Part shown: piece by piece, positions 2,528 to 60,545 of the stretch
How the letters are laid out: the number at the start of each line of letters is the position of its first letter
Numbering within the stretch: position 1 is the stretch's first letter
Assembly: GCA_018333395.1 (NCBI GenBank)
Contig: JAGXSQ010000155.1
Coordinates: forward strand, 27,514-91,513
Direction of reading: 5' to 3'
DNA from: Dethiobacter sp.
Lineage (GTDB): Bacteria; Bacillota_D; Dethiobacteria; Dethiobacterales; Dethiobacteraceae
DNA: 64,000 nucleotides
Translations under genes and position numbers: made by a program
The notes under the pieces: model-generated
What the model was told of the DNA's origin: nothing
Database searches by the model: none
Seen by the model: only the letters and a program-made list of their open reading frames with translations

Positions 2528-2546
2528 TTTGTGTCCTCCTCGCTTT

Positions 2547-3881: not shown

Positions 3882-3882
3882 C

Positions 3883-4773: not shown

Positions 4774-4814
4774 GCATTCCACCTCTTCTATGTTCACATT
4801 TTGTCAATGGCTAC

Positions 4815-18354: not shown

Positions 18355-19272
18355 CTAGTTAAAGACAGGGCGCGGCAGAAGGCCGGCGCGTGTGACGATT
18401 TCAGGGACGATTTCCTCCCAGGCCACAGCCATGAGGTGTATGCCAGCCAAGCCTTCCACTTTTTTCAGGCGCTCAATAGTCTCTACGCAAATCTTGACGC
18501 CTTCCGCTTTTTTATCGGTAGCGCCTTTTACGCGCTCCAGCAAGGCATCTGGCACAATCATACCGGACACGTTGTTTTTCATATAGCGGGCCGCGCCCAG
18601 CGATTTTATAGGGATAACGCCAGCCAGGATAGGCACTTTTTTGTGGATACCCAGTTCCCGTACCTTTTCCATCCAGAGCTCGAAGCGCTCCATGTCAAAG
18701 ATGGCTTGAGTCTGGATAAAATCGGCCCCGGCCGCTACTTTCTTCGCCAAGCGGGGCGCACGGTGCTCAAAGGGGTCGGCAAAGGGATTTTCCACCGCGC
18801 CGATGAAGATGTCGATAGGTGCTTCCAGTTTTTCGCCGCCGATGAAGACCTGTTCGTCACGCATCTTTTTCAGCACCTGAATCAGTTGCATTGAATCAAG
18901 GTCGTTGACGTTTTTAGCCGCCGGCTCGTTACCAAATTTGGCGTGATCGCCCTGGATGCAGAGGATGTTTTTGATGCCCAGAGCCACAGCCCCCAGAACG
19001 TCAGACTGGATACCGATGCGGTTCCGATCGCGGCAAGTAATCTGAATGATCGGGTCAAGCCCCATTTGTGCCAGAATAGAACCACTGGCAATGCTGGAGG
19101 TACGCACAATAGCCGTCTGGTTGTCAGTCAAGTTGAAGGCGTCCACAAAACCGCGCAGCATTTCAGCGTGGTGTTCAATTTTTTTCCGTTCCGCACTCTT
19201 AGGGGGGCCCAGTTCACCTGTAACTACAAAATGGCCGCTTTCCAGGACTTTTTGCAGGTTGCTTTTTGCCAT
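18355..19272 (-). CDS. metF: 5,10-methylenetetrahydrofolate reductase
   Basis: Catalytic flavoprotein subunit that reduces methylene-THF to methyl-THF, the last step of the methyl branch. The 305-residue TIM-barrel shows an N-terminal GELGPPK segment, the QITCRDRNR region and the FIQTQAIFD strand typical of MetF. ATG 19272 overlaps the metV stop as TGATG; GTG 19275 is an alternative. The tight coupling to metV and the upstream electron-transfer fusion protein indicates a MetFV-type enzyme fed by an Fe-S/flavin partner, as in acetogens. Last gene of the 22-kb operon. Confidence 0.93.
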   Translation of the reverse strand: MAKSNLQKVLESGHFVVTGELGPPKSAERKKIEHHAEMLRGFVDAFNLTDNQTAIVRTSSIASGSILAQMGLDPIIQITCRDRNRIGIQSDVLGAVALGIKNILCIQGDHAKFGNEPAAKNVNDLDSMQLIQVLKKMRDEQVFIGGEKLEAPIDIFIGAVENPFADPFEHRAPRLAKKVAAGADFIQTQAIFDMERFELWMEKVRELGIHKKVPILAGVIPIKSLGAARYMKNNVSGMIVPDALLERVKGATDKKAEGVKICVETIERLKKVEGLAGIHLMAVAWEEIVPEIVTRAGLLPRPVFN

Positions 19273-19940
19273 CACAGCGCCACATCCTCCCTTACCATTT
19301 TCCTTGGCCCCCCGGAGTGGGAGGTGGACCAGTCTTTGGGAGGCCTGACTTCTGCCAGGCAGTCCAGCTTACCGAAACGGGTCATCCGCTCCACAATCAG
19401 GTGCCAGCCGCAGTCGGTCTCCTTGCTGACCTCGCACTTACCGTCCTGAGAGCCACCGCAGGGGCCGTTTAGCATACTCTTGGAACAGCGGGCGATCGGA
19501 CAGATGCCGAGCGTTTCATCAAGCACGCAATCGCCGCAGCCCAAGCAGTTCTCCATCCATACACCCTGCCGGAGAGGTAGACCCATAAAAGTCGTATTGA
19601 GACCAGGGACGGTCAGCTTTTCGGCGTAGTGCATGTTCATAGTCTGCACGCCTACGCCACAAGCGAGAGAAATGACTAGGTCAGCATCTTCCACCTGCTG
19701 GCGAGTCGCCTCCAGGTATTCAAACTCACACTGCCGCTCCACTGTTTTGCTCTCCACCTGGACTTGTTTGCCGGCACGGTTGCGGGCGATGGAGAGGGCC
19801 AAAGCCGTCTCGCGCGCCTCCTTATCCCCACCAGCCATGCAGACAGTGACGCACTCGCCACAGCCCAGCACCAAGATTTTCTCATACTGTTCCGCGCTTT
19901 GCAAAATCTCCTGCAACGGTTTGCGTTCTCCTACAATCAC
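19272..19940 (-). CDS. metV: MetV, zinc/iron-sulfur partner of methylene-THF reductase
   Basis: A 222-residue protein with the MetV signatures LGCGECVTVC near residue 25 and the C-terminal cysteine cluster ENCLGCGDCVLDE, then CPIARCSKSMLNGPCGG near 150-175. MetV forms the MetFV complex in acetogens and binds an Fe-S cluster. It starts at GTG 19940, overlapping the stop of the upstream electron-transfer gene by 4 nt, and overlaps metF downstream, so the three are translated together. Confidence 0.92.
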   Translation of the reverse strand: MIVGERKPLQEILQSAEQYEKILVLGCGECVTVCMAGGDKEARETALALSIARNRAGKQVQVESKTVERQCEFEYLEATRQQVEDADLVISLACGVGVQTMNMHYAEKLTVPGLNTTFMGLPLRQGVWMENCLGCGDCVLDETLGICPIARCSKSMLNGPCGGSQDGKCEVSKETDCGWHLIVERMTRFGKLDCLAEVRPPKDWSTSHSGGPRKMVREDVAL

Positions 19941-22060
19941 TTGCTATCCCCCCCACCGCCGTTTAAGACGTTTTCAACTTTGGACAGAAATCCGTCGGCC
20001 ACGCCGGCGAAGTTGCGAACCTGGTCGACTGTCAGGTCGAGGTGCTCAATGCGCTCGCCGTCAAGGCCGATTTGCGCCAGTATTTCCCGGGCACGGGCCG
20101 CTCGCTTGCCCGCCCACTTGGCAACGTCTGTATAAGTACATTCTTCTTCCTGCTGGCAGCCGGCTAACAGAATAGCTTCCGCACCCTGCTCAAACGCCTG
20201 CAGGATGCGCTCCACGTCCACCTTAGCTACGCAGGGCACACGCACCACAGCGAGGTTGGCCGGTTTGTGGTGTCTTAAGTACTCGCTGAAAGCCTTCTCG
20301 GCGAAAGCACCGTAGCTACAGCAAAATACTACCGCCGGCGGTCCGTTTTTGCTGGCCAGAAGCACCGCCTCTGTCAGCTGGCCAAGGGCAGCCTCCACGT
20401 AGCCGTCGCGGAAACGGATGGCGCGGGCCGGGCAGATGCCGACACATAGCCCGCACGCCTGACACTCTTCATTACGGATCGTAAAAACACCGTCCTCACT
20501 GATGTGCGGTACGCCATAGGGGCAGGTACGCAAACAGGTGAGGCAAACGGCACAGATTTCATCCAGGCACTGAGCGCCGGCGGCGCAGTCCATACAGCGG
20601 CGGCTCTCGCACAACGCCATACGCTCATCATAGCCAACTTCGGCGTGGCCAAAATGGGTTTTTCTCGTGTCATGGTCAAGCAACGGCACGGGCAGGCGGT
20701 CAATCCGTTTCACTTTCTCCACCGTGGAAGGCGAAAGTGCCCCGAAGGTGGTAAACGGCTCCGGCAGACCGGCGTCAAAAGGAACGCCGTCCAGGTAGGC
20801 TTTAACAGCCAGCGCCGTTTTCCGACCGGTAGACATGGCTTTTACTGCTGAACCGGGGCCAAAGACAAGCTCGCCGCAGGCAAAGACACCAGAGCGGGTA
20901 GTCTGCATGGTGCGCTGGTTGTATTTCAACAAGCCTCTTTCGGTTATTTCCACCCCAAATTCAGACAGATAAGACAGGTTGTCATTGGCCTGACCAATGG
21001 CAAAAATCACCGTATTGCCCTCAAGAACCTGCAGTGCCTCGCCAAGCTTGGGATTAAAGCGCTTCTGCTCATCAAAGACACAGAGGCATTCCTGTACTTC
21101 AAGACCGGTGATGTTGCCGGTGTCATCAAGCACGATACGCTTTGGCCCCCAAGCCGGGTACATGACGACGCCCTCTTCCAGGGCCTCTTCAATTTCCCAG
21201 GCAAAGGCTGGCATTTCTTCGCGGCACTCCAGACAGACGAGCTGGACGTTTTCGGCGCCGCAGCGCAGCGCCGTACGGGCCACGTCCATAGCCACGTTGC
21301 CGCCACCGATAACGATGACACGGCGGCCAGGCGCAAAGTTGAAGCCCTGGAACTTCGCGCCGTTTAGGAAGGGCAGCGCCAGCAACGCATCTTTGGCCTC
21401 TGCGCCAGCGATGGGCAGAGCGCGACTGACGGGAAGCCCCAAAGCCAGCACTACCGCCTTGTATTCTGCGGACAGGCTGTCTAGGTTCAGTTCCCGGCCC
21501 AGTTCCACACCGGTACGGATCTCCACGCCGCGCGCCGCTACCTGCAAGACGTCTTTGCGCAGCCATTCCATAGGCAAACGGTAAAGGGGAATAAAGTTAG
21601 CTATTGCTCCGCCGCACTCCGCAGTGCGTTCAAAGATAGTAACAGCAAAACCAAGAGCCGCCAGTTCCCTGGCCGCCATCAGGCCGGCTGGGCCACCACC
21701 TACTACCGCCACTTTTTCAGGGCGCGTGATGGCCGCTTTCTGTACCTCGGGCCAATGGCCGTTTTCCACAGCAAATCGTTTCAGGGCTCGAATGGAGACG
21801 GCTTCATCCACATCTTTACGGCGGCACTCGCTTTCGCAAGGGTGCGCACAAAGCATCCCGCAGACAGCCGAAAGCGGGTTGGCCTCCGTTATGACTGCCA
21901 GCGCCTTGCTGTAGTCGCCGGTGGCAATCTGACGGACATACTCCTGCACATCGGTGTTGATGGGACAACCCGCCTGGCAGGGGGGGTACTGCGGTGATAC
22001 GGCAGATGCGTTTCCCTGCACAGAAGCAGGGACGGGGACAAGATTTTGTTTGTTGCTCAA
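19937..22060 (-). CDS. GltD-like FAD/NAD(P) oxidoreductase fused to ferredoxin and MvhD domains
   Basis: A 707-residue three-part redox protein. The N-terminus has GltD-type Fe-S cysteines (C28, C32, C67, C71, C75, C79), then a FAD site GGGPAG (121-126) and a second dinucleotide site IGGGNVAMD (251-259). A ferredoxin-like region follows (about 490-545, with CAVCLTCLRTCP and CQACGLCVGICP). The C-terminal about 130 residues resemble MvhD/FlpD, the 2Fe-2S subunit linking hydrogenase or formate dehydrogenase to heterodisulfide reductase (FCCSYGA, VPCVAK, GCQQEEEC). It starts at TTG 22060 behind GGAGG and overlaps metV. It probably moves electrons between NAD(P)H and MetFV; the route is inference. 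Confidence 0.82.
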   Translation of the reverse strand: MSNKQNLVPVPASVQGNASAVSPQYPPCQAGCPINTDVQEYVRQIATGDYSKALAVITEANPLSAVCGMLCAHPCESECRRKDVDEAVSIRALKRFAVENGHWPEVQKAAITRPEKVAVVGGGPAGLMAARELAALGFAVTIFERTAECGGAIANFIPLYRLPMEWLRKDVLQVAARGVEIRTGVELGRELNLDSLSAEYKAVVLALGLPVSRALPIAGAEAKDALLALPFLNGAKFQGFNFAPGRRVIVIGGGNVAMDVARTALRCGAENVQLVCLECREEMPAFAWEIEEALEEGVVMYPAWGPKRIVLDDTGNITGLEVQECLCVFDEQKRFNPKLGEALQVLEGNTVIFAIGQANDNLSYLSEFGVEITERGLLKYNQRTMQTTRSGVFACGELVFGPGSAVKAMSTGRKTALAVKAYLDGVPFDAGLPEPFTTFGALSPSTVEKVKRIDRLPVPLLDHDTRKTHFGHAEVGYDERMALCESRRCMDCAAGAQCLDEICAVCLTCLRTCPYGVPHISEDGVFTIRNEECQACGLCVGICPARAIRFRDGYVEAALGQLTEAVLLASKNGPPAVVFCCSYGAFAEKAFSEYLRHHKPANLAVVRVPCVAKVDVERILQAFEQGAEAILLAGCQQEEECTYTDVAKWAGKRAARAREILAQIGLDGERIEHLDLTVDQVRNFAGVADGFLSKVENVLNGGGGDSK

Positions 22061-22082
22061 GCCTTAAACCTCCTTACAGCAG

Positions 22083-22877
<795 letters not shown>

Positions 22878-22891
22878 TCACCGCCTTACTT

Positions 22892-23884
22892 CTAGAGGTT
22901 GGCTTGCCCGGCGTGGCTGCTTTTGACCATCAGATCATCAATATTTTGTCGGACGAGCTTGATAGCCTGCGGGTGACGCATAACCAGGATATCAATGCCC
23001 GCCTGCAGCAACGCCGCGGCAGTAGTCGCTTCCCAGAGGATACCGCGATCGATCTGGTCGCCCCAGCTGGGAAATTCGCTTCGCGGCGCAATCGCCTCCC
23101 TGGTGCGCCAGACTTCTGCCCCTATATCGCCAATCATCGGCATGGCTAGCATCGTATCACCCTGCAAAGCTCCAAAGCGTGCCCGTTCCATAATCGAATA
23201 GCCGTACTCCAGTCCGTATCCCAACGCGGCAGTGGTAGGATCTATGATGATACGATCGGCCGGCAGGTTCATTTCGGTAATAAGGATGTTCAGCTGTTTG
23301 CAGATATTGATATCAACGGGCGACTGAGCAATTATCGAGTGCTTGTGCACCATGCAGGCGGCCGTCAGCGACTTGTAATTGTCCTGTTCAGCCACGCCAA
23401 GAAGCAGGTTCTCACCGGCAGCCGCCTCCGCCACAGCCGGCATGATCAGGTTGTCTTTCTCTGCCTTACCACAGCCCAGAACGACAAGCGGACACCCGAC
23501 AGCAGCCAGGACCTTCCTAACGACACCGGCGCACTCTTCCGGGGAGGCGTCGTTTAGGTCAGGGTCAGCGCCTCTTAGCTGTAAAACTATCAGGTCGACG
23601 CCGTACTCCGCGACGCCTTTTCGCGCCCAGGCCGCCGGGTCATGAAAAACGTCTTCAAAGTACGGGACCAAGCAGGCCGGCCAGTCAGCGGGAGCTACGT
23701 CCCAGACTTCCAAGCCTATCACCGGACGGTGGGCGATCTGCCCTTCAAAGTGGAGAAAAGGCAACGACGTCTCCCCGCCAACAGTCACAGTAAAGGCGCG
23801 CGTGCCACCCTGTTCCCTGGTAGCGCCAAGAACCACCTCCTTCACTTTGCTCCGGTACTTTTCCATGCTGGGAGTAAAAGGCAT
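22892..23884 (-). CDS. acsD: Corrinoid/iron-sulfur protein small subunit
   Basis: A 330-residue TIM-barrel subunit that, with AcsC, holds the cobamide carrying the methyl group between AcsE and acetyl-CoA synthase. Recognisable segments are [13 protein letters not shown] near residue 37, the central [13 protein letters not shown], and [13 protein letters not shown] near 220. It starts at ATG 23884 behind GAAGGAG. A paralogue (37695-38579) accompanies the archaeal-type genes. Confidence 0.93.
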
Positions 23885-23919
23885 AGTATGATGCTCCTTC
23901 TTTAGGTTGGGCTGCCGTG

Positions 23920-25827
23920 CTAGCCAATTACCGAGGGGAAAAGGCTTCTGTCCGTATGGGGAAGGAAGAGTGCTGAAACAAATTCATGCAAAAAATCGTT
24001 CCCGGCGGAAAGTTCCAAATAAGTGATCCTTTTGCCCAGTTCCAGCGCCTCGCGAAAGGCTTCCTGTGAGAGCAGGCCCTGCCGCGCTCCTTTGACCGCT
24101 GAGTTGCCGATAAAGATGTACTTATCCGCCGGCAGATCAGGCAAAAGGCCAATGGCGACGGCATCGCGAATGTTGATATGACTGCCGAACCCGCCAGCAA
24201 CCAGGACTTTCTCAATGCCTTCCTGCTCAAGCTGCACTGACTTCAACAGGCAGCGGATGCCGGCATAAACAGCCGCCTTAGCCCGCAGCAAATTTTTGCT
24301 GTCGTTCTCGGTCAGAACAATGTCCTTGCCGCCGGCGGCCGCCTCCGCAAAGACGAGAATAAATTCCGGACCGTCATCACCCTGGCGGAGGCGCGAGGTA
24401 GCTAAGCCTGTCTGCATCTTGCCAGCCCGGTCAATGATGCCGGCGGCCCGGAGCTTGGCCAAACAATCAATCAAGCCAGAACCACAAACACCAAGTGGCT
24501 GAACATCACCAATCGTCTCTACCGTAACCTCGTAAGTTTTGGGGTCAATTTCGACCCGTTCAATGGCGCCTTTCATGGCCCGCATGCCAAAAGTAATGCC
24601 GCCGCCTTCAAAAGCAGGCCCGGCAGAACAGGCTACAGAAATGAGCCAGTCCCGGTTGCCCAGCACCATCTCGCCGTTAGTGCCGATGTCAATAAAAAGC
24701 GTCACTTCCTGCCCCCTGGCCATACCGGTCAGCAGTGTGCCGGCCACGATGTCCCCTCCGACATAGGAAGCAACGGCCGGGAAAGAAACCACATAAGCGT
24801 GCGGGTTGACAGTCAAGCCTAATTCAGCAGCCCGAGCCGGAGGTGGGAACGAGGAGAGCGGGATATACGGCTCCAGGCGAATGTATTTGGGGGAAAGAGC
24901 AAAAAATAGGTGGGTCATAGTCGTATTGCCAGCCACCACAGCCAGGTGTACGTCTTGACCGCTGATACCGTTCTCCGCCAATAATTCGGCGATAAGCTGG
25001 TTAACAGTGGCAATGACAGCTTCATGTAACTCTGATAAGCCCTGCTCTTTCTCCGTGGCATAGACAATACGCGTAATGACGTCCTCTCCAAAACGGGCTT
25101 GCTTGTTATAGGTACCCTTTTTCCCCAGGGTCAGGCCGGTCTCCAAATCGAGCAGATAGACGACGACGGTGGTAGTCCCGATGTCGATAGCCAAGCCAAA
25201 CGCTGGTCTCAGGGAGTGCCCTGGCTCGAGCAGGACAACGTCCGCGCAACCGTCCAGTTCCACCACCGTTGCCGTCACCTGCCAGGCTCCAGTGCGCAAT
25301 GTTTCTGGCAGCGTACGCAACACCGGCAGACTAATGTGTATTTTGCTGCAGGCGAATTCTTCCCGTAACGCCGTCTGCAGACGCGACCAGTCGGAAAAGT
25401 TTCCGACCAGCGTTGGTTCAGCAAGCGTCAGCCTGATTTTGCGGCACAACGGCTGCAATTTATACACTTGTCCCAGAACAATGTCCTGTTCCTTCAAAAC
25501 ATCCCTCTCCCCGAGCAACACCTGATGCAGGGCCAAGCGAGAGTCTTGAGGAACATCCACGACCACATGACCGTCCACCAGTGTCTGACACGCCAGAACT
25601 GGGCTGGCCGGGCACACCTGGGGGGCGTTGTCACCGGCGGCTTCGTCTTTGACGAAGCCGTCCTTGATCCTGACCTGGCAACGGCCGCAAGTGCCGGCAC
25701 CGCCGCAGTTGCTTTTCAGTTCAAGGCCCGCCAGCATAGCGGCCTGCAAGATCGAGGTACCCGCTTCAACGTGGGCCACCAAGCTATCCGGTAAAAAAAG
25801 AACTGTTACCTTACCAGCCGTACTCAT
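23920..25827 (-). CDS. acsV: Corrinoid-protein reductive activator (RACo-like ASKHA ATPase)
   Basis: A 635-residue reactivator that uses ATP to reduce Co(II) back to Co(I) when the corrinoid protein is oxidised. An N-terminal plant-type 2Fe-2S domain has C41, C47, C50 and C80. A linker follows, and then the ASKHA ATPase with the phosphate motif [16 protein letters not shown] near residue 212 and an ATP-site region VAGGFGSH near 560. It lies between acsC and acsD. It is the only activator in the operon, so it may have to serve both corrinoid proteins. Confidence 0.93.
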
Positions 25828-25857
25828 CAGTTCTCCGCCTTAAGCAAATTGCCACTG

Positions 25858-27189
25858 TTAGCTGGCAAAATTTTCTCTAGCAAACTTTGGTATGCCGGAG
25901 GCCTCCCGCGGACCTACCATTACCTTCCAGCCGGTAGCTTCCTGCGTGCTGCCGGAGAGGACGGCTACGTACCCCGGCAAAACTAACGTCTTGTGGTTAA
26001 GCCGTGAAGCTAAGTCGTTCTCCTCCAAGGCCTTGTTGATTGCCTCACCGGTCAGCTTGCCGGCGGCCCAAGCCGTCAGCACCGAGGTCCCCTCCGTATT
26101 GACAGGTAGAATAAAGGCGGGAATTTTGCTGTTAGCGACTTCACCTTCGACAATAAAATAAGTCAAAGAAAAATTGGTGGTGATATAGACAGGGGAGTCC
26201 GGTCCCGCGGCGCCCACGGCCACAAGCCTGGACTCGACTTGGATCGGCTTTTGCGGGTCAGTGTAAAGATTGGCACGCCACGTCATCAGCGGCAGCAAAT
26301 GTTCAGGCCGGCGGGCCTTCAGGACAACCAATGAGGCATATTTACTCAGATACGTACTCGCCTGTACAATCTCGGCCAACGGGTCGTCTTTACCGGTAAA
26401 AGCCATCGCCGGATAGGCAAAGGGCAGGTAGCGCTTACGCACAGCTGCCCGGCGTAACTGGGTCAGGTCATGCAAAACAGTAGCCGTCTCCCTGCTGCCG
26501 CTATCCAGCACCAGCTCTCTGTGGCCCAGTTTAATGATTTTTTCAGTCAAGTCGGAAAGATCGGCCAGACTCCCGCCCCGCACCGCCAGCGGACAACTAT
26601 ATTTTTTGGCCAACTCCGTCATAGCCTCGAAGTTTTGGGGCGTAGCAGCACAGATGAGCGGCCTGCCAGCTGCTAGGACAACTACGGCAGCCGACATAGC
26701 CGTCACGTCATCGCTGATCAGCACTACCGGCCGTTTGGTGCCGACCTTGATTGCTTCTGCGGCCTCTCGAAAGCGCCCCACATCGCCGGAGACGTGGCGC
26801 AACGCCACCAAATCAGCAACATAATGCTGCCCGACCCGGTCAATCTCCAGGCTGCTAAAGTCCGCCAAAAAAGCGTGCAGGTCCTCTGTGTCGGTAACTT
26901 CAACGGCAATGGCACCAGGGTTATGAAAACGCTTATCATGGCGAAAGAGCTCTGTCTCGTTGCCGATAGCCACAGAGGTCCCTTCCGATCCGATCCTAAC
27001 GAGTCGCATGGGCGGAGCAGCAGCGGCAGCCAGGACTTCCCGCCCCTCTGCCGATAGGTGGGGGCACTTTTCCTGAACGGTCTTACCGGCGGCCAAAGCC
27101 ATAGCAAAAGCGAGACAAGTAGGAAAGCCGCAGTCACTGGTATTCGTTTTCGGCAGCAATTTATAAATTTCCAATCCCGTCAAGCCCAT
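25858..27189 (-). CDS. acsC: Corrinoid/iron-sulfur protein large subunit, one cluster Cys replaced
   Basis: A 443-residue large subunit with the N-terminal Fe-S domain and a C-terminal corrinoid-binding barrel ending in the usual VGPREASGIPKF. In this family the 4Fe-4S cluster is bound by four cysteines in the pattern CxxCx4Cx16C. Here C20, C25 and C42 are present, but position 17 is threonine (TNTSDCGFPTC, codon ACC). The rest looks intact. The paralogue at 32174-33538 keeps all four. The change may alter the cluster used in reductive activation; the consequence is inference. Confidence 0.92.
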   Translation of the reverse strand: MGLTGLEIYKLLPKTNTSDCGFPTCLAFAMALAAGKTVQEKCPHLSAEGREVLAAAAAPPMRLVRIGSEGTSVAIGNETELFRHDKRFHNPGAIAVEVTDTEDLHAFLADFSSLEIDRVGQHYVADLVALRHVSGDVGRFREAAEAIKVGTKRPVVLISDDVTAMSAAVVVLAAGRPLICAATPQNFEAMTELAKKYSCPLAVRGGSLADLSDLTEKIIKLGHRELVLDSGSRETATVLHDLTQLRRAAVRKRYLPFAYPAMAFTGKDDPLAEIVQASTYLSKYASLVVLKARRPEHLLPLMTWRANLYTDPQKPIQVESRLVAVGAAGPDSPVYITTNFSLTYFIVEGEVANSKIPAFILPVNTEGTSVLTAWAAGKLTGEAINKALEENDLASRLNHKTLVLPGYVAVLSGSTQEATGWKVMVGPREASGIPKFARENFAS

Positions 27190-27226
27190 CAGTTCTCCCC
27201 TTTCCGCAGGCGTGCCGTGAATCGTT

Positions 27227-29410: not shown

Positions 29411-29437
29411 GCTTGCTCTCCCTTTCGCCCAATTTCC

Positions 29438-32134: not shown

Positions 32135-32173
32135 TTTGGCTGCCTCCTTAAAGAATGGCCCCTTTAGGCTTAC

Positions 32174-33538
32174 TTATGCTGCACTATCGCGACGCTTTTT
32201 CAGCTCGTTTAGAAACTTGGGCAGATCGGATGCTTCCCGTGGTCCGACAAGAATCTCCCAGTCGGGCAGTTCTTCTTCCAGGTCGCCCTTGATGCGGGCC
32301 ACATAGCCGGGGATCACTAGTTGTTTGCGGGTTACTTTGTCAGCCACGGCCTGCTTTTTGACCATCTCGGCAATTGTTTCCGGCCCCAGCTTGCCTGTAG
32401 ACCAAGCCGCCAGAACACCCAAGCCGCCCGTATCCTGACAGAGGAGATAAACAGGCAGTTTACTGTTTTCTGTTTCGCCGGCCACCGCGTAATACGTCAG
32501 GGCAAAGTTGGTCGTCACCAGCACAGTGGCACTCTCATCCGCATCGTTGAAGGGATAGACTTTGCTTTCCACCGTTGGCGCCACCCGCGGGTCGGTGTAG
32601 ATATCTTGCCGCGCTGTCAGCAGCGCCTGGAAAGCATTTGCTGATACATCATCGAGCACAATGATGCCGGCGTATTTGGCTACACCAGCCACTGCCAGCA
32701 GCAATTGCTGTTCTGGGTCGGAGGTGATTCCGGCAGCAGAGAAGAGGGTGGGAAAACCAAAAGGCCGGAACTTGTGGAGCAGAGCGGCACGGCGGATAAC
32801 AGTCTGGTCCCGAACCAGATCAGGCAGTGTGCGGGATCCCGGATCAAGCACCAGGTTTTCCAGGCCCGCCGCTTTCAGCTTGCCCACCAGGTCCACCAGC
32901 GCCTCCAGACCGGAAGCGCTGGCACAGACGGCCGCACTCTTCTCAAGGCGGGGAGCAACTTGCGCAAAATTGTCGATAGTAAGACAGACCAGCGGATTCC
33001 TGCTCTTACTCGCCTCATAAGCCGACAGTAAAACATCGGCTTCTGCCGCCAGCAAAATCAGACCAGCATCAGTCTCAGTCATTACTTTCTGCACCAGTCG
33101 TAGATACCGTCCACTGTCGCCGCTGGTGTATCGCAAAGCCGCTAGGTCAAAACGAGAAGTTTTGTCAAGCCTTTCTTGACACCAGCCAAGCTTGGCAATT
33201 TTGGCCGACCAGGATTCTTCATTTTCCCCATCCGCAATCTGTAAAGCCATGCCAGGGGCCCGCAAAAAAGTCTTCTGATGGCGGTGCATTACTTCTTCTT
33301 CCCCGATGGCCACCTGCCGTGTTCCCTGTCCAATGAAAACCTGCCTGATCGGCGGCTGCAGCATGTCTTCCAGCTGCGCCCGCGACTCGGTGGAAAGGTA
33401 AGTGCACTTGTCAAGCGCAATGCCGGCGTTCGCCAGTTTCATGGCGAACGCAAAGCAAGTAGCCAAGCCGCACTCCTTACAGTTTTTTTTGCCGTTTTCC
33501 GGTAAAAGTTTCTGAATATCTGAAGCTTTGACAGGCAT
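32174..33538 (-). CDS. cdhE: Second corrinoid/iron-sulfur protein large subunit (CdhE/AcsC paralogue)
   Basis: A 454-residue paralogue of the acsC product. The N-terminal cluster motif is complete (NCKECGLATC plus a fourth Cys about 16 residues on), and the C-terminus ends in the family's VGPREASDLPKF. It lies between cdhC and the DUF166-CooS gene, the junction of the archaeal-type and bacterial-type halves of the operon. It presumably pairs with the CdhD-like subunit at 37695-38579. Confidence 0.9.
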   Translation of the reverse strand: MPVKASDIQKLLPENGKKNCKECGLATCFAFAMKLANAGIALDKCTYLSTESRAQLEDMLQPPIRQVFIGQGTRQVAIGEEEVMHRHQKTFLRAPGMALQIADGENEESWSAKIAKLGWCQERLDKTSRFDLAALRYTSGDSGRYLRLVQKVMTETDAGLILLAAEADVLLSAYEASKSRNPLVCLTIDNFAQVAPRLEKSAAVCASASGLEALVDLVGKLKAAGLENLVLDPGSRTLPDLVRDQTVIRRAALLHKFRPFGFPTLFSAAGITSDPEQQLLLAVAGVAKYAGIIVLDDVSANAFQALLTARQDIYTDPRVAPTVESKVYPFNDADESATVLVTTNFALTYYAVAGETENSKLPVYLLCQDTGGLGVLAAWSTGKLGPETIAEMVKKQAVADKVTRKQLVIPGYVARIKGDLEEELPDWEILVGPREASDLPKFLNELKKRRDSAA

Positions 33539-33565
33539 AAAGACCCTCCTTATTCCAGGCTACGC

Positions 33566-34753
33566 TTAGAGACGCCCGGCGTTCTGCATGAACGCAGTCA
33601 GTTCATCCATGTTCTGCACATCTTTTTCTGTAGCAATTTTATCTGCCACATCGGCCGGGATATTATCCCCGGCTACTTCTTTCAGCGTCGAAGGCATCCA
33701 GGCTACCCGGTTAAAACCTCCGTCAGCAATCAGAAACTTCGGCGATTTGAGGTACTGAACGCCAATACCTACATAGCCTTCGTTCTGCTTGCCACCGCTG
33801 GCCAGGCCGGCCAGAGTGGAAAACGGTTCACCGGTCACGGTAGCACCGACAAAATCCCTAGAGACAACACCAAATCCATCAACCTCCGGGATGTAGAAAA
33901 CGATGGCCTCAAAGCAGCCGCAAGAAGTGTGCGGATAGGTGAGGGCGCTGTGCAGACTAAACTGGGTCGTCTCGCCCATGGACCGCTCGGCCACCACTTG
34001 GTTAACGTTATCATAGGAGATATTTTCCGGGTCAATAAGATTACCCTTGGGTACGGCAAACTGGGCGCCCTCGGGGTCAACTTTGGTAGCGGCGCGTCCG
34101 TCAAGCCAGTTGATGGCACCGCAGAGAGAAACACGCTCCGGCGTGACAATGCAAACATGGGTGGGAGCAAAGCTCTGGCAGAGGACACAGGCGTAGAACT
34201 CTTCCACGTCTTCCTCCCGCATACCTTTGATTCTATCGTCCCGCTCTTTGTAAACAGCCATCGCCCCGGCCAGCAGCTCCTGAACCTTAGCCGGGTCAGT
34301 GACGAACTCCACCGACATCTTTTCAATGACCGGCAGTTCGGCGGTAAACAGGTCGATTAAAATCCGCCCGACGTGCTCTAGAGAATCCAGCCCTTTCTGA
34401 AAGGCGTTTTTGTGAATTCTGATCCAGACGTCATAGCGCTGAGCCATGTGGAAAATGCCTTCCACATAGTTGATATACTGGTGGATACGCCTCTCCAGCA
34501 CCGCTTCCAAGTCTTTTTCCAGCACCTCCCCGGCCACATCCACCTTGATAAAGATCGGGCTGGAGGAGCCTACCGGGAAATCTTTGATGTCAGGGCCGGT
34601 GATGGTAATCTTGTCGTGTTCTACCTCATCCAACCCCTTGACCGTTACCAGCTCGCCCTTATGGCTGACATCGGGGCCACCAAACTCCACATGAAACTCG
34701 CTTTTACGAATTCGTTCGCCCTCATACTGCGGGCCTACGTCTACCACGTACAT
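33566..34753 (-). CDS. cdhC: Acetyl-CoA synthase beta subunit, archaeal (CdhC) type
   Basis: A 395-residue acetyl-CoA synthase lacking the roughly 310-residue N-terminal CODH-docking domain of AcsB, as in methanogen CdhC. The A-cluster ligands are intact: C189, C192, C201, C211 and the CGC at C278-C280. It is therefore probably catalytically competent, and coexists in one operon with the full-length AcsB at 27227-29410. It would dock to CdhA/CdhB encoded immediately upstream. Confidence 0.92.
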   Translation of the reverse strand: MYVVDVGPQYEGERIRKSEFHVEFGGPDVSHKGELVTVKGLDEVEHDKITITGPDIKDFPVGSSSPIFIKVDVAGEVLEKDLEAVLERRIHQYINYVEGIFHMAQRYDVWIRIHKNAFQKGLDSLEHVGRILIDLFTAELPVIEKMSVEFVTDPAKVQELLAGAMAVYKERDDRIKGMREEDVEEFYACVLCQSFAPTHVCIVTPERVSLCGAINWLDGRAATKVDPEGAQFAVPKGNLIDPENISYDNVNQVVAERSMGETTQFSLHSALTYPHTSCGCFEAIVFYIPEVDGFGVVSRDFVGATVTGEPFSTLAGLASGGKQNEGYVGIGVQYLKSPKFLIADGGFNRVAWMPSTLKEVAGDNIPADVADKIATEKDVQNMDELTAFMQNAGRL

Positions 34754-34789
34754 ACTTCTCTTCCTCCCACTCTATTTTTAATCTTTGAA

Positions 34790-35347
34790 CTAAACAGTCC
34801 CCAACTGCGAGACTAGGGCTTGCAGATACTCACGCCATTTATCGACCTTGGGAATCACCGGCACAGCAAAGTCGGCGTTGGGGTGGCTGCGACGGCAGAT
34901 AGCAAACGTCTTCAGGTGAGGAGCAAAGTGTTTGAGCGTTGACAGCCCCCGCTCCGCCAGATCGCACCTGACGCCAGTAAACAAGACCATGTCATGGTAG
35001 CCTTTGCCGCGGACGCCCGCCCAGTTCTTGTTCTTCAAGAAATGGACGATCTCAATGATGTCATAGGTAGAGTCGGGGCGAACCCCGAGTTCCATCATCT
35101 TTTTCTTGACATGGGCCGTGGCGCAGATAGGAATGTCGCGGGATTTGGCTATTTCCAGCGCATAATCAATCAGCAGTCTGTCACCGACAGGTGTCGCGAT
35201 AACTTCCGGGCCAAAAACATAGAGCGGGTTCTTGGCCTTGTCAATAATGGCGGCCGCCTCGGACGGTTCAGAGACTACCTTGGCCGCTTTTGTGCCCGTC
35301 AGGATATTTACCTTGTAATAGGGCGACGTCATTAACTCAGCTGCCAC
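34790..35347 (-). CDS. cdhB: CODH/ACS complex epsilon subunit
   Basis: A 185-residue DHS-like NAD/FAD-binding protein resembling the epsilon subunit that associates with archaeal CdhA (NPLYVFGPEV near residue 42, then CATAHVKKKMMELGV). Epsilon is a hallmark of the archaeal acetyl-CoA decarbonylase/synthase complex and is not part of the classical bacterial CODH/ACS. It starts at GTG 35347 behind GGGAGGG, 17 nt after cdhA. Its role is proposed to be in electron transfer or stability of CdhA. Confidence 0.9.
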   Translation of the reverse strand: MAAELMTSPYYKVNILTGTKAAKVVSEPSEAAAIIDKAKNPLYVFGPEVIATPVGDRLLIDYALEIAKSRDIPICATAHVKKKMMELGVRPDSTYDIIEIVHFLKNKNWAGVRGKGYHDMVLFTGVRCDLAERGLSTLKHFAPHLKTFAICRRSHPNADFAVPVIPKVDKWREYLQALVSQLGTV

Positions 35348-35364
35348 TTAAATCCCTCCCTTTT

Positions 35365-37671
35365 CTACTTAATGGTGGCCTCGATGGGAACCTTGGTCTC
35401 GTAAGTGCCGATGATCGTCGGCAAAGAGAGAACCGGCTTGGGCTGCCAGCCAACTTCCTTCAGATAAGCAAGCACTTCCCGCTTGTAAACGATTGGTATC
35501 TCCTTTTCCGTACGGATAAAGTTTTGCAGGTCATCAGGCAAGGTACCAATGAGTTGCTTGTAGGCAGAAATATAACTGTTTAGTTTGATAGCCCGACCGG
35601 GAGGCGTATCATTACGGCGGAAGCATTGCTTGATGATGGTGATGAGGGCTCTTTCTTTGGTCTCCGTCACAACCATCATGTGTTCCGGCGTCGGTTCTTT
35701 GGTATCCACCCGCGTCTTGGTGCGGCCGTCCATCACATTCCAGTCGCCTTCCTCTTTATTACTCATGAACAGGCGCCGGTACTTAGATCCGTGCGGGCCA
35801 AGCACGATCGGGATTCCCCAGCGTACCGCCCCGGTACCGATGCATAGCGCCTTCTGGGAATACGGACCCCAGACCACGCCACACGCACCAACACGGTTTA
35901 AGATATAGTCGGAGATCAGCTCGAAGTTGGCGCGGTTCGGCAAAGTGGCAAAAATGTTGGCGATTTTAATCGCCGCGCCGACTACGTGGGCGTTGGAGAC
36001 ACAGGAGCCAACGTTGACAATGCAGCCAGCATCAAACTCCGGGATATATTTTTCATAGATGGTCTTGCCGTCGGCGTCTTTTTTCATGGCCGCAGCCATG
36101 GCCGCACAGCCGGAGAGGGTGACGATATACTTGCGGCGGGCCAGCTCTTCGGCAAGCCAAGCCACATCGTCAATATCACCGGGGAAGTTGGAGCAGCCCG
36201 CAAAGAGAACCACGCCCGGGATGGTGCCAAGAACGATGGGCGAGCCGACCTTCCTGATTTCCACGTCGTGAATCGGACCGCGGCCAGAACGCATCTTGTA
36301 GGTCTCCCCATCGGCTGCCGCCCGCATCACCTTTAGAATGGGGATTTCATTAGCGCAGGCCTCTTCACATTTACCACAGCCTATGCAACGCAGGAAAAGC
36401 GCTCCCAGCTTGTCAAACTCACCTTTGCCAGCCAAATGGACGGCAGTATTCACCGCCAGCAGGTTGGCGCAGGCCCGGTTACACGCTTCACATGTACCTC
36501 TACACTTAGCCGCCAGTTGCGCCGCGTCCTCTTTGCTAAGATACTTCTTGGCTTCTTGGCGTTTAGGATCTAGAGCCAGCGCCGCCCGCACAGCTACTTC
36601 GGCTGCCTTGTCCACGTCTAGGATCAAGCATTGTTTCCGCTCGTCCACGATGGCTTGCAAAAGATCGTCGGCGGTTCTTTCCGAGACGTTTTCCAACCCG
36701 TAACAGATCTTATCCGAAACAGCGATTAACGCCGACCCGGTTTCTTTGGCCATCTGCGGGATGTCAGTCAGGACACACTGCTCGTCAGTGACAATGACGT
36801 CCGCCACGCCCGTCTTTAAGAAAAAGCGCTGCCGCGAGAGCGGGCCGATGACTTTGGCGGCGGCGGCATAACGGGTCACATCCTGAGCCGTACAGCAGAT
36901 TCCCCCTACCTCCACCTTATCATACAGATCATGCTGCCGCAGGTATTCGATGATGGCGTTGGCCACAACGGCATTATGGCCGACAACGATGATGGTAGGC
37001 TTTTTCCGGTCCACAGCCCCCAGACCCACATCCACCAGCGGTGTATCAGCCACCGAGGTAGGGTAGCCGAAACCGACAATCTGGGCAATATCCGCCGCCT
37101 CCAGCGCCACATGGTCCAGCATGCCGGCGTGAAACGACTTGGACTCAAAGTCCCGATAGTTACCTTCCTGCCCCATGTGAGTAGCTGATACCAGATGGAT
37201 CATTTCGCGCTCCACATATTCAATCGCATTCAGCAGATCGCCAAGCGTCTCTGGCTTCAGGCCCATAACCGTTCTGATAATCGGGGCTTCCACGTTTACT
37301 TGGCTGCCAAGATCAATTCTGAAATCAGCCCCCAATTTCTCGATCAGGTAATCAATAATGTGCCGACCGTGGGCCCCATGCGCCGCTGTGCCCATCAGGC
37401 AGCAAATCAGAATCCACCTGGCCTGCTGCGAAGCCATATCAATGCCGCAGGCACCCTTCTTATCTCCTGTCAAATCACATTTGCCAAAGGTACACAGACA
37501 GCACAGGTCACAAAATGGAGCATAAAACGGCTCGTAAGTGTCCAAGAGTCTTAAGTCCCAGTTGCGCAGATCCATCAGCGAAGCCATGGGCGTAGGACCT
37601 ACCGGCTCCCATTTGTCATCCGCTCTGATGATCCTATTTATTTCTTCCGCTCTCATCTTCCCTTTGCTCAT
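35365..37671 (-). CDS. cdhA: CO dehydrogenase alpha subunit, archaeal (CdhA) type
   Basis: A 768-residue CODH of the CdhA class. N-terminal Fe-S cysteines (CDLCCLCTFGKC) are followed by the C-cluster segments VVGHNA, GGICCTA, DEQCVL, AGCSN, SGCAA and GSCVSN. Unlike CooS, it has two extra ferredoxin-like clusters in the middle (CRGTCEACNRAC and CIGCGKCEEAC), as in the methanogen enzyme. I start at ATG 37671, since GGGGAGGG lies just upstream. A longer open frame reaches 37842 but runs into the preceding gene. The next gene is cdhB. Confidence 0.94.
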   Translation of the reverse strand: MSKGKMRAEEINRIIRADDKWEPVGPTPMASLMDLRNWDLRLLDTYEPFYAPFCDLCCLCTFGKCDLTGDKKGACGIDMASQQARWILICCLMGTAAHGAHGRHIIDYLIEKLGADFRIDLGSQVNVEAPIIRTVMGLKPETLGDLLNAIEYVEREMIHLVSATHMGQEGNYRDFESKSFHAGMLDHVALEAADIAQIVGFGYPTSVADTPLVDVGLGAVDRKKPTIIVVGHNAVVANAIIEYLRQHDLYDKVEVGGICCTAQDVTRYAAAAKVIGPLSRQRFFLKTGVADVIVTDEQCVLTDIPQMAKETGSALIAVSDKICYGLENVSERTADDLLQAIVDERKQCLILDVDKAAEVAVRAALALDPKRQEAKKYLSKEDAAQLAAKCRGTCEACNRACANLLAVNTAVHLAGKGEFDKLGALFLRCIGCGKCEEACANEIPILKVMRAAADGETYKMRSGRGPIHDVEIRKVGSPIVLGTIPGVVLFAGCSNFPGDIDDVAWLAEELARRKYIVTLSGCAAMAAAMKKDADGKTIYEKYIPEFDAGCIVNVGSCVSNAHVVGAAIKIANIFATLPNRANFELISDYILNRVGACGVVWGPYSQKALCIGTGAVRWGIPIVLGPHGSKYRRLFMSNKEEGDWNVMDGRTKTRVDTKEPTPEHMMVVTETKERALITIIKQCFRRNDTPPGRAIKLNSYISAYKQLIGTLPDDLQNFIRTEKEIPIVYKREVLAYLKEVGWQPKPVLSLPTIIGTYETKVPIEATIK

Positions 37672-37694
37672 TTTCTTCCCTCCCCTGTAATTTT

Positions 37695-38579
37695 CTAGCT
37701 TACCAAGGACCTGACACGTTGCAAGCTTTCCGGATGTCGTAACGTCACAATGTCTGCACCAGCCAACAGCAGAGTAAAGGCGGTAACCGCTTCCCAAACA
37801 ATTCCTTTGCTGGCATCCTGAATGGCCTCCTTGGTTTTCCATACCTCCCTTCCGACTATGGCAATTAATGGAGACTGCAGGGTTTTGTCATCATGCACAA
37901 CAGCCGAGAGACGTATGCGTTCCATGGTAGAAAACGCATACTCCAGCCCATAGCCAGCGGCACACGTCAGCGGATCGATGACTACCCTGTCCAGCGGGAA
38001 AAACTTGCCTAGCCTGATATTTAAGTCTTTCGCCAGATTGATGTCCATGGGTATCTGGGCGATAATGGCATGCCCATGCTCCAGGGCCGCAGGCGCTATT
38101 TCCTGGTAGTTTTCCTTCAGCACCGGGCCAAGCAACAGGTTCAGACCGCTGCAGGCTGCGGCTACTACTGGCAGAACAGCCGCATCTTTTTCCTTTTCGC
38201 CCAGTCCAAAAACGACCAGTGGCACATTAATAGCTTCGGCCACCTTTTTTACACCAGCGGCAATCTCGGCGGCCGGGGTATCTTTTTCCATGCTGTTTAG
38301 CGTCATAAAAATCATGTCCGCCCCGAAAACATCGACACTTTTCCTGGCCCAAGCCACCGGAGAAGATTTGACGTCCGCATAAAACTCCTGCAACCCTGGG
38401 GCCCAGTCTGCCGGGTCGCTATCAGCTACCTCCAGAGCAAACTTAAGTTGACTCGGCTTTCCTTCAAAAAAATGAAAAGGAAGCGTGTTTTGGCCGCCAA
38501 AAGTAGTTTTTTTCCCTTCCGTCCCCAGCAGCAGTTCCTTGATTTCACCCGGATATTTCTCCAAAAACTTTTCCAACAT
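37695..38579 (-). CDS. cdhD: Second corrinoid/iron-sulfur protein small subunit (CdhD type)
   Basis: A 294-residue paralogue of AcsD, shorter, with the same TIM-barrel features (GGQNTLPFHFFEG near residue 30, AQIPMDINLAKDLN, DPLTCAAGYGLEYAF). I place the start at ATG 38579 with GGGAGG 8 nt upstream; a TTG at 38615 would overlap the previous gene and lacks a ribosome site. Its neighbours are a methyltransferase upstream and cdhA downstream, so it belongs to the archaeal-type half. Confidence 0.9.
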   Translation of the reverse strand: MLEKFLEKYPGEIKELLLGTEGKKTTFGGQNTLPFHFFEGKPSQLKFALEVADSDPADWAPGLQEFYADVKSSPVAWARKSVDVFGADMIFMTLNSMEKDTPAAEIAAGVKKVAEAINVPLVVFGLGEKEKDAAVLPVVAAACSGLNLLLGPVLKENYQEIAPAALEHGHAIIAQIPMDINLAKDLNIRLGKFFPLDRVVIDPLTCAAGYGLEYAFSTMERIRLSAVVHDDKTLQSPLIAIVGREVWKTKEAIQDASKGIVWEAVTAFTLLLAGADIVTLRHPESLQRVRSLVS

Positions 38580-38599
38580 ACTCTCTGCCTCCCGAAGTG

Positions 38600-39478
38600 T
38601 TAAATTTCCAGCCAAGAAGGAGAATACAGTTCGCGCCCCATGATGATCCTAGCCGTCTTATAGTAGTTCTTCTCCTCCAGCGACATGGCGGCCATGTCCA
38701 GATCTTCCCCATCCATCACTCGCAGGATAATGGAAATAATCTCGGGCTTTTCGCCGGCATTAAGGGCCAAAAGATCCTGGTCGAAGCTGTCTACGATCGC
38801 CGAGTACAGGCCAGCGTTCCCCAAAATAACTGTCGCCACCTGATTGACAATGTGGCGCAAGTGACGAGGCACACCATTAGACAGATTGGAAAGACCAATG
38901 GTAGATTTTACGCCGGGGGCAATATCAGGCAACATTCTGATGAACTCCAGCACTTCCAAAGTATCAGCCTGACTCACACCTATCGGCATCAGGATCGGGT
39001 CAACCCAGATATCTTCAGTTGGAATACCGAGGCCGTTAGCATAGTCAATTGTTTCCATGATGGACTCGGCTCGTGAAGCAGCATCAGAAGGAATCCCAGC
39101 GTCATTAAGTACTGAAATTACGACATTGGCGTTATACTTCTTGGCCAGAGGCATCATCCGCTCCTTGCTGTCCTGCGTGCCAGCGGCAGAATTAATCAGC
39201 GGCTTCCGCCGGCAGATAGCCAAGCCCGCCTCCATGGCTACTGGGTTGGTGGTATCCAGGGATAGCGGAAGGTCGACAGCTTCCTGAACAAGATTAACAA
39301 GCCAACTCATTGTCTCCGTCGGATTTTTGCGCGCAGGGCCAATGTTCAAGTCTATCCAGTGCACACCGGCCTCAGCCTGCTTGCTGGCCAGTTCCCGCAA
39401 AGGACTCGCCTCCCTGCCGGAAAGAGCTTCCGAAACGACCTTGGAGAGAATCTGAATGTTTTCTCCGATAAGAATCAT
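38600..39478 (-). CDS. Second methyl-THF:corrinoid methyltransferase-like protein
   Basis: A 292-residue pterin-binding TIM-barrel related to AcsE but with a longer C-terminus (EEKNYYKTARIIMGRELYSP). Conserved segments are LIGENIQILS, DLNIGPARKNP, LSLDTTNPVA and TIGLSNLSNG. It is likely to methylate the CdhD/CdhE corrinoid protein encoded with it. Whether it uses THF or another pterin cannot be told from sequence. MtrH-like or other corrinoid methyltransferases are alternatives. Confidence 0.85.
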   Translation of the reverse strand: MILIGENIQILSKVVSEALSGREASPLRELASKQAEAGVHWIDLNIGPARKNPTETMSWLVNLVQEAVDLPLSLDTTNPVAMEAGLAICRRKPLINSAAGTQDSKERMMPLAKKYNANVVISVLNDAGIPSDAASRAESIMETIDYANGLGIPTEDIWVDPILMPIGVSQADTLEVLEFIRMLPDIAPGVKSTIGLSNLSNGVPRHLRHIVNQVATVILGNAGLYSAIVDSFDQDLLALNAGEKPEIISIILRVMDGEDLDMAAMSLEEKNYYKTARIIMGRELYSPSWLEI

Positions 39479-39513
39479 GCTTTCTCCTCCTTCTATTTTT
39501 GAAGATTTAACTC

Positions 39514-40320
39514 CTACCGCTGATGCGGTATTTCCGGCATAATTTTGGCTACCACTTCATCCATCCCAGGCAAAGTGCCGCCGGTCGCGCCCAGTAAGCC
39601 GCTTTGCTCAGCCATGGCATTGTCCAAGACTTCTTCAGCAAAAGGCAAAATGCCGATGAGTTCGTCAGGGGGAAAACGGGACTGGATAAAGTCCCTCTCC
39701 CGGGCGGTGCGTACCTTATTGGCCAAAAATTTCACCCGGCCTATACCCAGTTCAGTCGCTAGCTTTCGCACTACCTGTGCCGTCTGCACGGAAACCAAAG
39801 TAGGCTCGGTAACAATAATCATCAGATCCACCCCGCGGGACGTTCCTCGCGTCAGGTGCTCAATGCCGGCACTCATATCCATAATGACCATATCGTCCCT
39901 ATCAAGCAACAAGTTACCAAGAACGGCATATAAAAAAGAGTTTTCGCGGCAATAGCAGGAGGTACCCCCCTGCTTGACAGAACCCATGCGTAAAAAACTG
40001 ATCCTATCCCGCCGCAGCGAGAAGCCCTCAATCAGGTCGTCCACTTTCGGATTAAGAGCGTAAAAAGCTCCCCCGCCACCGCCACGTGCCGCGATGACCT
40101 CCTGCATCTCCATAACCGGACGGAGACTGGCAAGCTCCCCTGCAGGAAACCCTAGCACCGCACCCAAGCTGACGTCAGGGTCAGCATCTATGGCATAAAC
40201 ATGATAACCTTTAGCGGCAAAGGCCAGAACCAGATTGGCCGCCACCGTCGTCTTGCCCACGCCGCCTTTACCAGATACCGCAATTTTCAGAAAAATCCCC
40301 CCTGACACAGGTGCGCCCAT
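39514..40320 (-). CDS. cooC: CooC/AcsF-like nickel-insertion ATPase heading the CODH/ACS operon
   Basis: A 268-residue MinD-like ATPase with Walker A GKGGVGKTT near residue 18, DADPD near 46, and a CxC pair (C122, C124), the CooC signature. It probably loads nickel into the CODH or ACS encoded downstream. The start is uncertain. ATG 40320 has no good ribosome site, while an AGGGGGG lies 5 nt before a CTG at 40290, from which the protein would begin at the family-typical KIAVSGKGG. First gene of the 16-gene operon. Confidence 0.9.
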   Translation of the reverse strand: MGAPVSGGIFLKIAVSGKGGVGKTTVAANLVLAFAAKGYHVYAIDADPDVSLGAVLGFPAGELASLRPVMEMQEVIAARGGGGGAFYALNPKVDDLIEGFSLRRDRISFLRMGSVKQGGTSCYCRENSFLYAVLGNLLLDRDDMVIMDMSAGIEHLTRGTSRGVDLMIIVTEPTLVSVQTAQVVRKLATELGIGRVKFLANKVRTARERDFIQSRFPPDELIGILPFAEEVLDNAMAEQSGLLGATGGTLPGMDEVVAKIMPEIPHQR

Positions 40321-40347
40321 CTCTAGAAGATGGACACCCTAGTTTGT

Positions 40348-40366
40348 ATTCTACCGTACTGTAGAA
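40348..40366 (-). promoter_or_regulatory. Dyad over a possible -10 upstream of the CODH/ACS operon
   Basis: A perfect inverted repeat TTCTAC-N6-GTAGAA (40349-40366) overlaps a -10-like TAGAAT read on the minus strand (40353-40348), 28 nt upstream of the ATG at 40320. No convincing -35 is present, which could mean an activator-dependent promoter. It is a candidate operator for the whole operon. Confidence 0.4.
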
Positions 40367-40439
40367 AATCCTTCTTTTCTAAAAAAATCATTTTTGTCCC
40401 GTTTTCGACACCTTCTGCGCCTTTCCGGCGGCTTTTTTC

Positions 40440-58894: not shown

Positions 58895-58980
58895 CGCACA
58901 CCTCTTTAAAAAAAATCGCTGAACCCTACCCGCCTCCATAACACCGGCATTCCAGCGGCACCCTCGTCACGGATCAGCAG

Positions 58981-59003
58981 CTAACCGCGGTTTCGCAGGT
59001 TAG
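58981..59003. terminator. Hairpin downstream of the DUF1156 remnant
   Basis: CTAACC pairs with GGTTAG around an inner GCG-GTTT-CGC stem. No U-run follows, so its role as a terminator is unproven. Confidence 0.35.
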
Positions 59004-59007
59004 GCCT

Positions 59008-60457: not shown

Positions 60458-60545
60458 GATGACCCTCCCCAAAATCCGCATCAGAAGAATGTGGCGCAAC
60501 GCATTCAATACTGCTGAAATGTGCAGAAACTGCTCTACAACAGCT

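Follow-up and report, generated by a model that had tools for sequence, protein, structure and literature searches.

On the minus strand of a 64,000-nucleotide (nt) stretch of Dethiobacter sp. DNA (contig JAGXSQ010000155.1; here called the window), sixteen genes between positions 18355 and 40320 encode carbon monoxide dehydrogenase/acetyl-CoA synthase (CODH/ACS), widely considered to be among the oldest carbon-fixing enzymes. The locus appears to be an operon within an operon. Gene order, domain content and trees make it likely that a seven-gene hybrid CODH/ACS cassette was inserted between cooC and acsA of an ordinary bacterial operon, that acsA, fused to a DUF166 domain, joined the cassette, that this unit ((cooC)-acsE1...DUF166::acsA) was later passed to other Firmicutes, in which the acsB operon is now without acsA, and that the fusion protein serves the acetyl-CoA synthase AcsB. 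The locus would then represent one route to bacteria carrying both CODH/ACS versions, with a protein weld at the seam. The host organism is related to bacteria of alkaline springs.

The sixteen open reading frames (ORFs) stand in tandem, none separated from the next by more than 39 nt, and several overlap; an earlier reading of this DNA from its letters (the sequence-only reading), which had counted sixteen minus-strand genes with gaps of about 40 nt or less, is thus borne out. The order of transcription is cooC, acsE1, acsD1, cdhA, cdhB, cdhC, acsC1 and DUF166::acsA, followed by acsB, acsC2, acsV, acsD2, acsE2, a GltD/HdrA-like-FlpD oxidoreductase gene, metV and metF. Names were assigned by profile searches, and that of cooC by position and family. 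The ORF listed for cdhA overextends at its 5' end; the start common to its relatives, giving 768 amino acids (aa), lies near 37671.

39514..40320, minus strand: cooC, MinD/ParA ATPase of the nickel-insertion type, by position and family, 119 nt downstream of clpC
38600..39478, minus strand: acsE1, methyl-tetrahydrofolate (methyl-THF):corrinoid methyltransferase and first gene of the hybrid cassette (NF005719, 226 bits against a cutoff of 259; NF040758; PF00809)
37695..38615, minus strand: acsD1/cdhD, small corrinoid subunit (NF003376, 339 bits)
35365..37671, minus strand: cdhA, archaeal-type CODH subunit, 768 aa from the relatives' common start (TIGR00314, 1018 bits, cutoff 781; tree)
34790..35347, minus strand: cdhB, epsilon subunit (TIGR00315/PF02552)
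33566..34753, minus strand: cdhC, short acetyl-CoA synthase of 395 aa, by profile, with the A-cluster cysteines retained
32174..33538, minus strand: acsC1/cdhE, large corrinoid iron-sulfur (Fe-S) subunit, by profile
31388..32134, minus strand: DUF166 domain (PF02593), N-terminal part of the fusion, with CxxCxxCxxC and three conserved cysteines
29438..31387, minus strand: acsA-type CODH, forming the C-terminal portion of the fusion (nearest solved chains 7zkj_A and 1mjg_A; trees)
27227..29410, minus strand: acsB, full-length bacterial acetyl-CoA synthase of 727 aa, by profile
25858..27189, minus strand: acsC2, large corrinoid Fe-S subunit, by profile
23920..25827, minus strand: acsV/RACo, corrinoid reductive activator, by profile
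22892..23884, minus strand: acsD2, small corrinoid subunit, by profile
22083..22874, minus strand: acsE2, methyltransferase (NF005719, 316 bits)
19937..22060, minus strand: GltD/HdrA-like flavoprotein of 707 aa with a C-terminal FlpD/MvhD domain, by profile, adjoining metVF
19272..19940, minus strand: metV (PF12225)
18355..19275, minus strand: metF (PF02219)

The identities that the sequence-only reading gave to the promoter-proximal half (CooC, a methyltransferase, CdhD, CdhA, CdhB, the short CdhC and a corrinoid large subunit) were matched by the profiles. In the distal half, AcsB, AcsC, AcsV, AcsD, AcsE, MetV and MetF stood, but the supposed CooS proved to be AcsA fused to DUF166, and the 707-aa oxidoreductase had not been named.

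Relatives were collected by scanning genome contigs with a CdhA alignment (242 found, 80 kept), and two genome sets were searched, comprising 19 genomes of the order of the metagenome-assembled genome (MAG) HKB214 and 97 of its class. The arrangement clpC-cooC-acsA-acsB-acsC-acsV occurs in all seven cassette-free genomes of the order with full context. In six of these, acsD-acsE-hdr follow acsV, other genes standing there in L168; mcsB is likewise present in six, the contig of L170 ending at clpC. In L167, whose upstream part is cut, metV-metF come after hdr. In the window and in HKB214, seven extra genes (acsE1-acsD1-cdhA-cdhB-cdhC-acsC1-DUF166) lie exactly between cooC and acsA. HKB214 (L031/G009) carries all sixteen genes in identical order on a 214-kb contig, with mcsB and clpC upstream, so that the search for the same gene order in other genomes, proposed in the sequence-only reading, returned a full counterpart.

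The cdhA cassette is present in five of the 19 genomes of the order and eight of the 97 of the class. Among the latter eight, only HKB214 has the one-run layout; in G001–G005 the two sets occupy separate contigs, no AcsB match was obtained for G006, and different genes follow the fused acsA in G125. The view that both sets in one run are unusual holds insofar as the layout is not standard among kin (one of eight), but the co-occurrence of the two sets had already been published.

The ORF first read as CooS encodes 898 aa, of which residues 4–249 match PF02593 (164.8 bits against a cutoff of 24.4) and residues 260–880 match the CODH profile TIGR01702. DUF166 reads into acsA in frame with no stop between them. 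At the seam the fused protein reads ...LAEDRQRSVDPAV, whereas stand-alone AcsA reads ...VDRNRSIDPAV and stand-alone DUF166 ends in ...IAENK; another excerpt across the seam is ...SLAEDRQRSVDPAV... In seven cassette-free relatives AcsA is a separate protein of 655–669 aa without DUF166, which the window AcsA is not. Of the best 120 protein clusters listed, 14, from several sources, carry the fusion intact, as do four of the 19 genomes of the order; it occurs at full length in five of the 97 genomes of the class, and in G125 it spans a stretch of N.

The layout of relocated cassettes suggests which synthase the fused CODH serves. In three CROMO MAGs (G001–G003) the acsE1...DUF166::acsA block lies on a different contig from the clpC-linked operon, whose order is cooC-acsB-acsC-acsV-acsD-acsE-hdr, without acsA. 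In G004 (UBA993) the relocated block begins with cooC, and the clpC-linked operon lacks cooC, acsA, acsV and hdr. In none of G001–G004 and HKB214, all with an intact fusion, was a second gene more than 50% identical to AcsA matched; other bacterial-type CODH matches in G001–G003 are 28–49% identical to the window AcsA, and G004 has no bacterial-type CODH match besides the fusion and CdhA. Since acsA is absent beside acsB where the fused copy lies elsewhere, the fused AcsA is probably the CODH partner of AcsB, even in trans. G001–G004 amount to a natural experiment, and with this layout the exchange of CODH and ACS partners becomes directly testable.

Under the proposed scheme, DUF166::AcsA would act as the CODH of AcsB and provide its CO, in cis in the window and in trans in genomes with relocated cassettes, while CdhAB and CdhC would form a second, hybrid synthase. 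Both synthases would belong to one regulatory unit and draw methyl-THF from one source (MetVF). More tentatively, DUF166 might be a cysteine-rich accessory of the hybrid CODH/ACS for metal handling or electron transfer, which the fusion would bring to the bacterial CODH.

The CODH part of the fusion is of the AcsA kind, as indicated by bit scores and by acsA adjoining acsB in kin. It scores 776 bits to 7zkj_A and 756 to 1mjg_A, the entries concerned also containing a chain of acetyl-CoA synthase; the free CODHs 1su6 and 1jqk give 633–653 bits. AcsB has the domains PF18537, PF03598 and PF19436, including the N-terminal and A-cluster domains, and aligns over 4–726 to 1oao_C. Alignments to solved structures show the A-cluster cysteines retained in CdhC and AcsB, the C-, B- and D-cluster ligands in the AcsA part, and the C-cluster and extra ferredoxin-like cysteines in CdhA. 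These are residues that we take to be the metal ligands, and on that assumption both synthases and both CODHs keep them, as the sequence-only reading had stated.

That reading had also described the promoter-proximal set as an archaeal-type CODH/ACS. However, cdhA, cdhB and cdhC stand beside acsC, acsD and acsE in one cluster, in the same order in loci L001–L004, L006, L007 and L031; since AcsE is included, the set is of the published hybrid type (CdhABC + AcsCDE) and not an archaeal complex. In the CdhA tree, the window falls into a bacterial-hybrid clade of 12 rows, with ten Bacillota loci and one Hakubella locus (Shimodaira-Hasegawa-like approximate likelihood ratio test (SH-aLRT) 100). A 100% branch parts 16 archaeal rows from the bacterial rows, and one ANME-1 row lies inside the bacterial group. 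Of the trees that had been proposed, that of CdhA was built; the archaeal type of the protein is upheld, yet its place is within the bacterial-hybrid clade, apart from the archaeal rows. The CdhA of L034 (9276–14127), a Methanophagales ANME-1-LC archaeal MAG, groups with those of Unc8 and Acetothermia (100%), and DUF166 adjoins its cdhA; this placement reflects either back-transfer to archaea or a binning error.

Transfer of the cassette is supported by the disagreement between trees of the fused AcsA and those of native operon genes. In a quick tree the fused AcsA forms a single clade of 20 rows (SH-aLRT 100), with the order's stand-alone AcsA adjacent, and six rows group with 100/100 in a careful tree. 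Constraining the CROMO AcsA to group with that of G056, CROMO's nearest kin in native-gene trees, was rejected at a cost of 217 log units (p 4e-65); grouping it with the order's stand-alone AcsA costs 79 log units (p 8e-7). In the concatenated native-gene tree (ClpC, McsB, AcsB, AcsC2, AcsV, AcsD2 and AcsE2 from 14 genomes, with gaps), CROMO and Cedars are placed with genomes that lack the cassette (supports 83/99, then 81/82 with G056), and a single clade of the window, HKB214, CROMO and Cedars is rejected (p 9e-5). The CooC tree gives the same split, and the cassette-borne CooC of G004 and G006 lie beside the window CooC (100/99).

The fusion start also appears outside these lineages: in P0243, a short contig named Candidatus Hakubella thermalkaliphila (Actinomycetota), DUF166 continues into the start of AcsA, and the Hakubella CdhA (L005) clusters with the CROMO CdhAs (100%). 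The fused cassette may have crossed phyla, with contamination as a possible alternative.

Several points weigh against nesting followed by transfer of a fusion that serves AcsB. AcsB alone does not reject a clade of the window, HKB214 and CROMO (p 0.28; 0.042 with UBA993 added), so that transfer rests on the concatenate, in which CROMO and Cedars are placed with only 83/99 and 81/82, and on CooC; because groups were partly chosen after the trees had been viewed, all these p-values are optimistic. The AcsA of the Clostridium complex (6ytt_B) scores only 484 bits, below the free CODHs; therefore, bit scores alone are no proof of the AcsA kind, and synteny with acsB carries part of the assignment. 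In G007 an AcsB-type gene stands at the end of a contig and a cdhA cassette is present, with no AcsA-type match, so that either its AcsB may use CdhA or its acsA was left unassembled; AcsB could instead use a free CooS. Since the cassette genomes compared are MAGs by title, absences from them are soft. Several stand-alone DUF166 rows sit inside the fused group, from which it follows that fission also occurred.

DUF166 itself seems to belong to the hybrid set, judging from linkage. In 23 of the 80 cdhA loci, cassette-type cdh/acs genes are found no more than 300 nt from it; the distance is 345 nt in one more locus and 3–4 kb in four archaeal loci. The remaining 52, several of them cut by contig ends, yielded no DUF166 match above the threshold applied. 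Of 51 genomes tried, 31 had a PF02593 match. Among 14 controls, Methanosarcina acetivorans, Methanocaldococcus jannaschii and Bacillus subtilis gave a PF02593 signal, which exceeded the cutoff in two of these three. Three cysteines are nearly universal (C142 in 30/30 rows, C187 in 29/30 and C219 in 30/30), and the Firmicutes type additionally carries CxxCxxCxxC. A set of this type (two CxxC pairs, spacing 2–4) is found within the first 70 residues of 24 of 26 DUF166 proteins, and together with both later motifs tested in 19 of 26; the fragment P0251 and P0266 lack it. The structure predicted for the domain is of high confidence (predicted local distance difference test score 90.9) but has no clear match to any solved fold. 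In the DUF166 tree, the stand-alone P0249 and P0250 are at the base, followed by the fused rows; taken with the single AcsA clade, this suggests one fusion, then repeated re-splitting with DUF166 retained. That retention, together with the lack of an AcsA-type match in G006, suggests that DUF166 works for the hybrid enzyme, with AcsA as a passenger. In the literature searched, 'DUF166' as a whole word occurs only in table rows of two selenoprotein reviews; the family is now tied to CODH/ACS through fusion and recurrent linkage. A bolder and rather doubtful extension would make DUF166 an unrecognised metallo- or electron-transfer subunit of archaeal-type CODH/ACS whose fusion docks the bacterial CODH on the hybrid CdhABC, giving a mixed enzyme in which two CODHs and two synthases exchange CO, electrons or methyl groups while the portable cassette displaces the host acsA.

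The two sets might also be independent parallel enzymes that share a transcription unit, the hybrid for low-CO2 alkaline acetogenesis and the bacterial set for another direction or another electron partner, with the fusion as a neutral by-product of packing. Such an arrangement is possible but seems unlikely to us. Each set does own an AcsC, AcsD, AcsE, CODH and ACS, and the authors of PMC9751293, in the accessible part of that paper, suspect that the hybrid is an adaptation to high pH and low CO2; however, a neutral weld would be expected to revert to a separate acsA, whereas the fusion is intact in those 14 clusters and G001–G004 and HKB214 show no second close AcsA.

The bacterial set could alternatively be in the course of replacement, the hybrid with DUF166 being the working enzyme and AcsA-AcsB on the way out in this clade, to which we assign a minor probability. 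In G005 (GPS1B09) the cassette and DUF166 are intact, AcsA is cut to a C-terminal remnant (L006, 8165–9206; L136, 9202–9621, for AcsA/AcsB remains), AcsB is broken into three fragments and no acsV stands between acsC and acsD; the bacterial AcsA-AcsB pair seems to be lost there. P0241, a stand-alone DUF166 of 256 aa, represents four contigs, and its source name shares the DDT30 prefix with the GPS1B09 contigs. G006 (a 1.2-Mb MAG) and G008 likewise have the cassette with a stand-alone DUF166 and no AcsA-type or AcsB match. However, MAGs are incomplete, and the window, HKB214 and G001–G004 each have an uninterrupted acsB reading frame. Between the window and HKB214, the ratio of nonsynonymous to synonymous substitution rates (dN/dS) is 0.04–0.15 for the operon genes, a rough estimate since dS is mostly above 1, and 0.06 for both AcsA and AcsB. 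An assembly or binning artefact joining two genomes is very improbable because the independent 214-kb HKB214 contig has all sixteen genes in order, and the same fusion recurs in clusters from several sources.

The nested layout can be set against systems already described. According to the accessible text of PMC9751293, all putative homoacetogens studied from Hakuba and the Cedars encode the hybrid complex, and Firmicutes lineages of these serpentinising springs encode conventional AcsABCDE too. The accessible text of PMC6305446 reports the hybrid set in Unc8 and two clusters in Ca. Desulforudis audaxviator, and suggests a single transfer from Euryarchaeota; that of PMC7325909 gives acsED-cdhABC-acsC in a Hakuba actinobacterial single cell. 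The joint presence of hybrid and conventional sets in Firmicutes of such springs is therefore already known, and the nesting and the fusion add to it. Literature searches found no report of the nested layout or of a DUF166::AcsA fusion, and the word 'fusion' is absent from the accessible text of a marine CODH survey (PMC13240472).

The hybrids of NPL-UPA2 Unc8, Ca. Desulforudis audaxviator and Hakuba actinobacterial single cells share the subunits and the order acsE-acsD-cdhABC-acsC with the window, and the Unc8 locus (L030) has a DUF166 gene between acsE and acsD. Unlike these, the window set is embedded in a bacterial acs operon and ends in DUF166::acsA. The ordinary operon of HKB214's order (clpC-cooC-acsABCV, acsDE, hdr) has the same flanks and the same order from acsA to hdr, with metV-metF as in L167, but lacks the seven genes between cooC and acsA and the fusion of acsA to DUF166. 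CdhA, CdhB and the short CdhC are common to the window set and archaeal acetyl-CoA decarbonylase/synthase (CdhABCDE); unlike the latter, the window set has AcsE, and its CdhC ends about 70–80 residues short of the archaeal profile and chain. Where corrinoid-subunit matches were obtained in archaeal loci, they are best to the window AcsD2/AcsC2 (31–41%). DUF166 proteins in cdh loci are mostly stand-alone and about 225–265 aa long, whereas the window copy is fused to a CODH; the three cysteines are common to both.

Upstream of the run, clpC lies 119 nt from cooC and is preceded by mcsB, both by profile; the two smaller genes beyond mcsB are putative mcsA and ctsR, taken without a profile match. 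A pattern scan lists no terminator- or promoter-like site inside the clpC-cooC gap (40321..40439, minus strand). Its top promoter-like site (11/12 positions) is at 45057, ahead of the putative ctsR, and a minus-strand site with 10/12 positions lies within cdhB. A small inverted repeat in the gap, TTCTAC-N6-GTAGAA, was spotted by eye and could be an operator. The 707-aa GltD/HdrA-like-FlpD flavoprotein between acsE2 and metV, also present in six of the seven cassette-free relatives, is a possible electron partner of MetVF.

Elsewhere in the window, a CooC/MinD-like ATPase, a CoxE-type VWA protein and a MoxR-like AAA ATPase stand in a row on the minus strand at 1775–4797, possibly a second metal-cofactor maturation set. 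A ParE-type toxin and Phd/YefM-type antitoxin gene pair is found at 61087–61648, and within 54347–60604 a SNF2-family helicase of 1530 aa (54347–58939) adjoins a Schlafen/AlbA_2 protein (59165–60604).

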